Assembly (NCBI GenBank): GCA_036504735.1
Contig: DASXUQ010000010.1
Span: 310,001-374,000 of the forward strand
From: a bacterium
GTDB taxonomy: Bacteria > Electryoneota > RPQS01
Length of the DNA stretch: 64,000 nucleotides
Direction: 5' to 3'
Position numbers and translations under genes: made by a program
Notes under the pieces: generated by a model
The model's input: the letters and a program-made list of their open reading frames with translations, nothing else
What the model was told of the DNA's origin: nothing
The model's database searches: none
Part shown: piece after piece, positions 2,088-4,725 of the stretch
Numbering within the stretch: the stretch's first letter is position 1
How the letters are laid out: the number at the start of each line of letters is the position of its first letter

Positions 2088-2115
2088 TTGACAAATAATA
2101 TATTAAGTGTATCTT
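2088..2115 (+). promoter_or_regulatory. Promoter candidate for the lytic transglycosylase gene
   Basis: A perfect TTGACA (2088-2093) is followed after 16 bases by TATCTT (2110-2115). The same -10 hexamer occurs with TTGACT upstream of the phoH gene at the other end of the window. Initiation near 2122 would give a leader of about 210 bases before the ATG at 2336, much longer than needed for translation. Confidence 0.55.
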
Positions 2116-2221
2116 GATCTCTGTATCCTTCAAGCGGAGAGTTATTGTGCAGGAATATATAACTTTCTCTGAGCAAACTGAGTTGATTTGAGACGAAAAA
2201 ATAAGTACATTCAACTGAAAT

Positions 2222-2331
2222 GGGGCTCTGGGGGAGACCGCTTGTCCCGTTTCGTTGGTAAGTAACTGATTCCGTGACGGTTGGGTGGTTCTGCGGCCCC
2301 CGGCCCGAAGACCTTAACTAAGCCTTCGGAG
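2222..2331 (+). promoter_or_regulatory. Structured 5' leader, riboswitch-like, upstream of the LysM lytic transglycosylase
   Basis: GGGG (2222-2225) and CTGGGGG (2226-2234, interrupted by TC) can pair with CCCCC-GG-CCC (2297-2306), closing a domain of about 85 bases that contains GGGGGAGACCGC. A second hairpin, CCGAAG (2305-2310) with CTTCGG (2324-2329), shares bases with the first stem and covers the GGAG that would serve as ribosome binding site four bases before the ATG. Mutually exclusive stems with a masked ribosome site are typical of translational riboswitches. Because c-di-AMP (ydaO) riboswitches often precede LysM and lytic-transglycosylase genes, that class is a candidate, but the match to its conserved core is only partial. 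An unknown class or a chance GC-rich fold remains possible. Confidence 0.35.
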
Positions 2332-2335
2332 CTCC

Positions 2336-4315
2336 ATGAGACCAACACTCATTCTCCTCGTGGCACTCGTGCCAACCCTGCTTCTGACTGCGCGCGTTGA
2401 TGCGGCACATTCTGCCACGACGACGGCATCGTCCGAGACCAAGCAACTCCTGTCTTCTCGCCCGATTGGTGATAACAGCCAACTTACCGAGCGCCAGAAA
2501 TGGAGCCTTGCGCGTGATGCCTTCGACAAAGCGCAAGCGGAAGAGAAGCGGAAGGACAACGAAGCTGCGGCCTACTACTATGAGGTTGCTCTCGAACTGT
2601 TAGGCAGTTTGGACATGGCCTCGATTGAAGTGCCGACCCGGCGTGTCCTGGATTTGCAAAGCAAGGTTCTCAAGAAGTACAACTCGTTCCTTGCGTCCAT
2701 CGACAATCTGCCTTCTACCGCCGGCCCGGTGGCGATTCTGGAATCGTCCGCACCGTCCGATGAGGCCGATACCGAGAGTCTGCCCGAAAAGCCTGCTCCG
2801 GATCTGATTGCCCCGCAGGCGACCCTTCGTCCGGACCGGACTCAGCTTCCGAACGTCCCCATGACGATGAATGCCGCGGTAGCCGGGCAAATCACGTTCT
2901 TCATGAATCGTGGCCGTAAGGTTATGATGAAGTGGATGGAACGTGCTGCCTATATGTTCCCGCGTCTGCGGCCAATCATGGCCGAAGAGGGCATCCCGCA
3001 GGAAGTTCTGTTTTTGGCGATGATCGAATCGGGATTGAATCCCCGAGCGTATTCGTATGCGCACGCGGCCGGTGTCTGGCAGTTCATTCCGTCCAGTGGC
3101 CGGATTTATGGTCTCGACGTGGGCCGTCTGTATGATGAGCGCATGCACGTGGAAGAGTCCACTCGCGCGGCCTGCCAGTATCTGCGCAAGCTCTACGATG
3201 AGTTCGGCGATTGGTATCTGGCATTTGCGGCTTACAATTGCGGCGAATTGCGCGTGGAGCGTGAGATCGCCCACAGTCGGACGCGCGACTATTTTGGTTT
3301 GAAGAAGCTGCCGGCTCAGACCCGCAGCTATGTTCCGGCTTATCTAGCCACGCGAGCCATTTGCGAGAATCCCGGCCAGTACGGGTTTCCTCCCTTAAGT
3401 CCTGAGACTCCGTATGGCGGTGTGGACGTGTGGGTGAATGGAAGCTATCGGCTGGATCATGTCGCTCAGGCCGCCGGAGTGGATCCGGAAACTGTGGCGG
3501 ATCTCAACCCGGAGTTTGTGCAGGGTGTGACGCCGTCAGGCTCTCCGGTGCGCGTCCGTCTGCCCCGTAAGGCGGACAAAGATTTTGAAAGTCGCCTGGC
3601 TGCGCTGCCCCGCACCGTGATTCCGGAGACCGGAGTTCACAAGGTGCGTCGCGGCGAAACGCTGGCGGAAATTGCGCAACTCTACGACACGACGCCGAAC
3701 GCGATTCGTACGCTGTCGGAAAATCGCAAGGTGAATTTCAAGAAGTTGCGCGGCGGTATGCAACTGGCCGTTCCGCTGGGACAGAAGGTCGAACCGAAGG
3801 TGGAGCCTTCGCAGATCGCGGCGGCAGACGTATCGAAGAGCGCGGCAGCACCGAAGACGGCAGCGCCGGCACCGGTCTCCAAGACGGATACGGGCGAAGC
3901 CAGGACCGTTGCGGCGGTGAACACGAACGCACCGGCGAACCACGAGATTATCTATACGGTTCATAAGGGCGAGAGCATCGGCCAGATCAGCCGCCAATTG
4001 GGCGTGTCGGTCGATGAAATCGTGAGCCAGAACCATATTTCGAATCCGAATAAGGTGCTGCCGGGCAGCAAACTGAAGATCATGATTCAGGGTGCGCCGG
4101 AAGTGGCTCAGACGCCGGAGCCGGCTCCGAAGGCCGAGGCCAGCGCGGCGAAGAAAGTTGACTCGAAGCGATTCACGCACACCGTCCAGCCGGGGGACAC
4201 CGTTTGGTCCATCGCGCGGACGTACGGACAGGATCCGCACAAAATCTTACATTGGAATGGCCTGACCCGCGAAAGTACCCTATATCCCGGTCAGGAACTT
4301 ATTATTAACCAATAA
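2336..4315 (+). CDS. Exported lytic transglycosylase with SLT domain and three LysM domains (MltD-type)
   Basis: 659 residues that cleave the beta-1,4 MurNAc-GlcNAc bond of peptidoglycan to 1,6-anhydroMurNAc products. A Sec signal peptide covers about residues 1-23. After an Ala/Pro/Glu-rich spacer, the SLT domain spans roughly 215-330, with the catalytic Glu231 in AMIESGLNP and the supporting AAYNCGELRV motif. LysM repeats start near 435, 538 and 613 and are joined by Ala/Pro/Lys-rich linkers; the last one ends the protein. The architecture matches MltD, but there is no lipobox, so the protein is probably periplasmic rather than acylated. It is transcribed alone behind a long structured leader and followed by a weak hairpin. 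Confidence 0.93.
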   Translation: MRPTLILLVALVPTLLLTARVDAAHSATTTASSETKQLLSSRPIGDNSQLTERQKWSLARDAFDKAQAEEKRKDNEAAAYYYEVALELLGSLDMASIEVPTRRVLDLQSKVLKKYNSFLASIDNLPSTAGPVAILESSAPSDEADTESLPEKPAPDLIAPQATLRPDRTQLPNVPMTMNAAVAGQITFFMNRGRKVMMKWMERAAYMFPRLRPIMAEEGIPQEVLFLAMIESGLNPRAYSYAHAAGVWQFIPSSGRIYGLDVGRLYDERMHVEESTRAACQYLRKLYDEFGDWYLAFAAYNCGELRVEREIAHSRTRDYFGLKKLPAQTRSYVPAYLATRAICENPGQYGFPPLSPETPYGGVDVWVNGSYRLDHVAQAAGVDPETVADLNPEFVQGVTPSGSPVRVRLPRKADKDFESRLAALPRTVIPETGVHKVRRGETLAEIAQLYDTTPNAIRTLSENRKVNFKKLRGGMQLAVPLGQKVEPKVEPSQIAAADVSKSAAAPKTAAPAPVSKTDTGEARTVAAVNTNAPANHEIIYTVHKGESIGQISRQLGVSVDEIVSQNHISNPNKVLPGSKLKIMIQGAPEVAQTPEPAPKAEASAAKKVDSKRFTHTVQPGDTVWSIARTYGQDPHKILHWNGLTRESTLYPGQELIINQ

Positions 4316-4323
4316 ACCTGAAT

Positions 4324-4346
4324 ACCCCGCGGTAATGGTGCGGGGT
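4324..4346 (+). terminator. Hairpin after the lytic transglycosylase (weak terminator candidate)
   Basis: ACCCCGC and GCGGGGT form a 7-base-pair stem with a 9-base loop, starting 9 bases after the stop codon. No T-run follows, so intrinsic termination would be weak; it may instead mark the 3' end after processing. Confidence 0.35.
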
Positions 4347-4422
4347 GGTGCGGGCCGCCACGATCGGACATACAGTGAGCAGACAACAGGGTTCCCGCTG
4401 CGGCAGGATGGAGGGCATATCC

Positions 4423-4725
4423 ATGACCAAGCAGGATCTGGTTGATCGCCTGTCCAATGAGATCGGCATGCCGAAGCTCGAAGTCCAGACGGTAGTCGAC
4501 GGGCTACTCAGTCTGGTAATGGATTCGGTTGCCAGTGGACAGCGGGTGGAATTGCGCAGGTTCGGCGTGTGGAAACCGGTGAACCGCAAAGGCAGGAAAG
4601 TACGGACGCCGGGTGGCATACACGAAATTGACGTTCCGGACAGACCCTCCGTTGTCTTCGTCCCATCCACAGAGTTTCGCGCGCGGGTGAGCGACCTCAA
4701 GTTTGAGGAAGCAGGGACTGTATAG
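4423..4725 (+). CDS. HU/IHF-family nucleoid DNA-binding protein
   Basis: 100 residues, close to the family's 90-100. Residues 1-45 form the helical dimerisation part (TKQDLVDRLSNEIGMPK). The beta-arm region contains GRKVRTPGG where HU has GRNPRTGE, and ends with the F-x-PS-x-FRARV tail equivalent to F-x-PGKALK. The ATG at 4423 is chosen because GGAGG lies eight bases upstream and the family N-terminus begins there; the frame stays open upstream, but that extension has no homology-like features. The arm lacks the usual Pro63 context of E. coli HU, so it could be a diverged paralogue with a specialised role. Confidence 0.88.
   Translation: MTKQDLVDRLSNEIGMPKLEVQTVVDGLLSLVMDSVASGQRVELRRFGVWKPVNRKGRKVRTPGGIHEIDVPDRPSVVFVPSTEFRARVSDLKFEEAGTV

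Follow-up and report, generated by a model that had tools for sequence, protein, structure and literature searches.

The dose of a lytic transglycosylase needs careful setting, and to our knowledge post-transcriptional control of these enzymes is little described. The window, the whole 64-kb stretch of DNA analysed here, carries the gene of such an enzyme, preceded by sequence that could be transcribed as a leader RNA. The question is whether this leader regulates the gene, and as what kind of element. An earlier note on the same DNA described a leader of about 210 bases behind a TTGACA promoter and likened it in part to the c-di-AMP (ydaO) riboswitch class or, failing that, proposed that it could be a new class.

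2336..4315, + strand: MltD-like lytic transglycosylase gene, 659 aa, combining an SLT domain with three LysM domains; taken as the regulated gene

The protein matches PF01464 (E 3.5e-24) and, in three stretches, PF01476 (E 2.5e-33), and its orthologues within the family are 49-62% identical. Upstream, a YggS-like gene (1949-1221) and a DivIVA-like gene (1224-733) lie on the opposite strand, so that the leader sits in a divergent intergenic region. Directly 3' of the transglycosylase gene is a gene for an HU-family DNA-binding protein (4345-4725); by eye, the partial downstream sequence of some relatives looks similar to this HU-gene region. The orthologue was located by protein in 10 of 11 same-family genomes, the eleventh being 56% complete, and in two sister-family genomes, and the upstream regions of the 12 orthologues were compared on the proper strand. 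The leader sample comprises ten sequences from a single family, five of them from close relatives.

Promoter and extent of the leader

2183..2211, + strand: conserved promoter, with -35 TTGATT (2183-2188), a 17-nt spacer and -10 TACATT (2206-2211); found for 10/10 same-family and 2/2 sister-family orthologues
2218..2335, + strand: predicted 5' leader, 118 nt, its start placed from the -10 box
2088..2115, + strand: TTGACA-N16-TATCTT, a possible extra upstream promoter, in this genome only

All 12 upstream regions contain TTG[A/T]TT-N17-TAnnTT with exact N17 spacing. The pattern TTGATTTN{14,18}TANNTT has a single match in the 64-kb window, where 0.05 would be expected by chance. Transcription is predicted to begin some 6-7 nt past TACATT, near 2218, and the predicted leaders of the ten same-family orthologues measure 113-118 nt. 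In the sister family the TTGATT-N17-TAnnTT arrangement is kept in both genomes, in which the hairpin P2, described below, was not found.

The TTGACA hexamer (2088-2093) of the earlier note is present as sequence and is followed 16 nt downstream by TATCTT, a fair -10 box. This arrangement is confined to the present genome: none of the nine further family genomes with an orthologue has a counterpart in the corresponding position. The conserved promoter is the one at 2183-2211. When the same-family genomes were searched with the leader DNA, four gave matches of 74-84% identity upstream of the orthologue; in the two longest of these, to the two nearest relatives, the similarity begins at about 2180 rather than at 2088. 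Together, the position of the conserved promoter and the onset of DNA similarity reduce the conserved leader from the 210 bases first proposed to about 115 nt. Between the two promoters, and upstream of the region with DNA similarity to relatives, lies an imperfect inverted repeat, GAGAGTTAT ... ATAACTTTCTC (2139-2178).

The P2 hairpin and its neighbours

2279..2305, + strand: P2 hairpin, with stem 2279-2285/2299-2305, bulged U2286, inner pairs 2287-2288/2297-2298 and loop UUCUGCGG (2289-2296)

P2, a hairpin of 27 nt absent from the earlier note, is the best-supported feature of the leader. A hairpin of this type is present in 10/10 family leaders, its loop reading [A/U/C/G]UCUGCGG or a near variant. 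The loop is near-invariant: CUGCGG occurs in eight of the ten, UUGCGG in one (G001) and CUGCGA in one (G010), and genome G007 has the variant ACUGCGG. Its distance from the start codon is 41-48 nt upstream in every one of the ten leaders. The arms vary widely yet pair within each genome, as in GGTTGGG/CCCAGCC, GTGGAAG/CTTCCAC, ACCGGAAG/CTTCCGGT and GGAG(T)GGGAG/CTTCCCTCC.

With the arms registered by hand, which favours pairing somewhat, 85 of 90 cells are paired, a count never reached when the 3' arms were shuffled 20,000 times. Because five of the ten leaders are closely related, the arm-swap test was redone with six divergent representatives, as an energy test in which swapped pairs could refold freely. 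The native combination of arms ranks first of 720 permutations, at -65.0 kcal/mol against -60.5 for the next best and a mean of -33.2. Across the six representatives the stem energy stays between -9.5 and -12.5 kcal/mol despite the drift in sequence. In a DNA operator the arms would be the conserved part; drifting paired arms around a near-invariant loop suggest an RNA hairpin instead.

A covariance model of P2, R1, matches nine family genomes once each (E 1.7e-7 to 0.002) and the tenth weakly, at 21.7 bits; all ten matches lie at the transglycosylase gene. Nothing scores above about 22 bits in the two sister-family genomes or in the other sampled genomes of the phylum, and seven of the next-best matches (G000, G007, G001), on examination, are all inside open reading frames. 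In a DNA search for extra copies, three partial matches (G000, G008) proved to be ordinary coding-like sequence, sharing only GGCCCGAAGACC-type letters. By these searches, P2 is present in one copy per genome, solely before the lytic transglycosylase gene. It thus combines conserved structure, compensatory changes and a place upstream of one orthologous gene, as looked for in a generic cis-regulatory leader RNA.

2222..2248, + strand: P1, a weak hairpin GGGGC/GUCCC with a purine-rich loop containing GGGGGAGA, part of the consensus structure of five close leaders
2305..2329, + strand: P3, stem CCGAAG (2305-2310) / CUUCGG (2324-2329), running into the SD-like GGAG (2328-2331)

P1 differs in sequence between genomes and has no covariation support; by eye, G005, G007 and G010 allow a hairpin with a GGCGA-type loop in the corresponding position. 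P3 adjoins P2 in the five closest genomes, where it is identical, and is absent from the five more distant leaders; it too lacks covariation. In the minimum-energy fold of the present genome, the tract GGGGCUCUGGGGGAG pairs long-range with the same RBS region as P3, and the two pairings are mutually exclusive. This agrees with the earlier note's picture of two alternative stems, the 3' one over the ribosome binding site, but overall the leader folds no better than shuffled sequence: the energy of the full leader is ordinary (z -1.04, with 24/200 shuffles as good).

Folded to a consensus, the five close leaders form P1, P2 and P3, with a z of only -1.5. For all ten full leaders, RNAalifold on MAFFT alignments gives a z of -0.05; here P2 is misplaced because of its bulge, and the arm-swap test used hand-registered arms instead. 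Alignment-based support is restricted to P2, the sole helix conserved across the family. The alignment of homologous leaders, proposed earlier as a check, has a divided outcome, in that P2 covaries strongly but the RBS-covering P3 is invariant where present and missing from the five distant leaders. The covariation of P2, with a predicted start near 2218, leaves the idea of a structured leader standing, which was to be given up had covariation been lacking and the transcript started past 2300.

Readings of the conserved leader

Sequence comparison is the basis for the promoter, the leader length, the pairing of P2, the conservation of its loop, its single copy and its association with the gene. 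From these we infer that the leader acts as RNA within the mRNA, that a trans-acting factor reads the loop and that translation is the regulated step. The best explanation, to which we give an even chance, is a lineage-specific cis-regulatory leader RNA whose P2 loop is read by a trans-acting factor, altering translation or stability of the transglycosylase mRNA. A loop that is conserved while its stem drifts, and that keeps its distance from the start codon of the single gene it precedes, follows the pattern of a recognition hairpin.

Transcription from the conserved TACATT promoter would produce an mRNA whose first ~115 nt carry P2, and P2 would hold its 8-nt loop, [A/U]UCUGCGG, at a set distance from the start codon. 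Most likely, a trans-acting factor, either an RNA-binding protein or a small RNA with CCGCAG, recognises this loop and by binding would change how well the lytic transglycosylase mRNA is translated or how stable it is. For the five closest genomes, the occupancy of P2 could pass to ribosome access via P3, which lies partly over the SD-like GGAG. Against this explanation stands the narrowness of the element, known from ten leaders of one family, with R1 matching neither of the two sister-family genomes.

As for the factor, Hfq (PF17209) and CsrA (PF02599) were each found in 0/11 family genomes, which argues against a CsrA- or Hfq-dependent leader. RRM_1 proteins occur in all 11, one to five in each (for example G000:C2:46125-46334). 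The presence of RRM_1, with Hfq and CsrA not found, may indicate an RNA-regulation toolkit of the Bacteroidota type. RbpB, an RRM protein of Bacteroides, acts as a global RNA binder on sRNAs and mRNA leaders and is reported to prefer AU-rich sequence (PMC11697453). Since the P2 loop is GC-rich, an RRM protein as its reader is a guess.

The hairpin may also be passive and regulate nothing, as a stabilising 5' structure or an RNase-processing site whose loop is kept for the sake of folding or cleavage. A stem energy held within a narrow range while the sequence drifts, and the restriction to one gene target, would both suit such a role. Neither a near-fixed 8-nt loop sequence nor a fixed distance from the start codon would be needed for it, however, and we consider it rather unlikely.

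A riboswitch of a new class, in which an aptamer built of P1, P2 and P3 binds a small molecule (e.g. a cell-wall fragment) and access to the RBS is gated by P3, is quite improbable. The structured leader of constant length and the conserved hairpin loop agree with it, as do, in five genomes, the stem over the SD and the alternative pairing for the SD. Riboswitch aptamers, however, usually conserve far more positions; here a single hairpin is conserved family-wide, and half of the leaders lack P3. Inspection of the leaders revealed no conserved junction, and by eye no consistent complement elsewhere in them would serve as pseudoknot partner for the P2 loop.

Control by an upstream ORF would require that a short ORF behind a purine-rich SD in the first half of the leader be translated, with the position of the ribosome setting the folding of P2 and P3. 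G009, G002 and G008 have GGAGG/AAGGG followed by ATG and an ORF of 7-10 codons, and the present genome has a TTG version (LSRFVGK) in the region 2220-2280. The start codon and the peptide are not conserved, however: G006 has CTG only, and no such ORF is present in G007, G005, G004 and G001. A mini-ORF with a good SD is thus limited to three or four leaders, and a conserved one was rejected. Nor does a consistent reading frame run through the leader, since its lengths (113-118 nt) are not divisible by three and a conserved small ORF is lacking from most leaders. This mechanism is very improbable.

The c-di-AMP riboswitch (ydaO, RF00379), a class that controls wall hydrolases in some bacteria, has a negligible chance: the likeness is a loose resemblance of CCGAAGACC...UAACUAAGCC, limited to some shared letters towards the 3' end, but no covariance match at E<=10 was obtained in 2000-2450, nor any match to RF00379 in 13 genomes of the order, whereas the same search gives true ydaO elements at 80-90 bits in distant genomes (G042, G052, G060). 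Diadenylate cyclase (PF02457), the c-di-AMP synthase, was found in 0/11 family genomes, against 11/14 control genomes. The search called for by the earlier note, with RF00379 and all of Rfam, matched no family, and Rfam 15 gave 0 matches at or above the gathering cut-off in the window and nine orthologous loci. At sequence level, the ydaO reading is thereby refuted. The alternative of a new class survives in weaker form, as a conserved structured leader that matches no Rfam family.

Relation to known leaders and significance

By gene, the closest described case is the YjbJ motif (WRC-39-1) of Streptococcus, where a candidate leader RNA precedes a gene predicted to encode a lytic transglycosylase; its two hairpins lie some 30 nt before the SD and are described as compatible with an intrinsic terminator (PMC11109978). 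Both elements are small, have few hairpins and belong to one lineage each. By its published description, the YjbJ motif differs in phylum and in having two hairpins, in contrast to the one covarying CUGCGG-loop hairpin here, which has no U tract. The RbpB-bound 5' UTRs of Bacteroides offer a second comparison: the present organism is likewise an FCB-type bacterium with RRM proteins and no Hfq or CsrA found, but RbpB reportedly prefers AU-rich sites and the P2 loop is GC-rich.

A wider claim, that this uncultured FCB-type phylum has here a new class of regulatory RNA, a 5'-leader sensor that sets transglycosylase synthesis by binding a cell-wall-linked small molecule or a dedicated sRNA or RRM partner, is distinctly unlikely. 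In conclusion, the leader carries a conserved and hitherto undescribed hairpin that probably tunes the amount of the enzyme. The scope is narrow, a single gene in a single family, and within it P2 is a small, concrete target of 27 nt for finding RNA readers in these uncultured bacteria.
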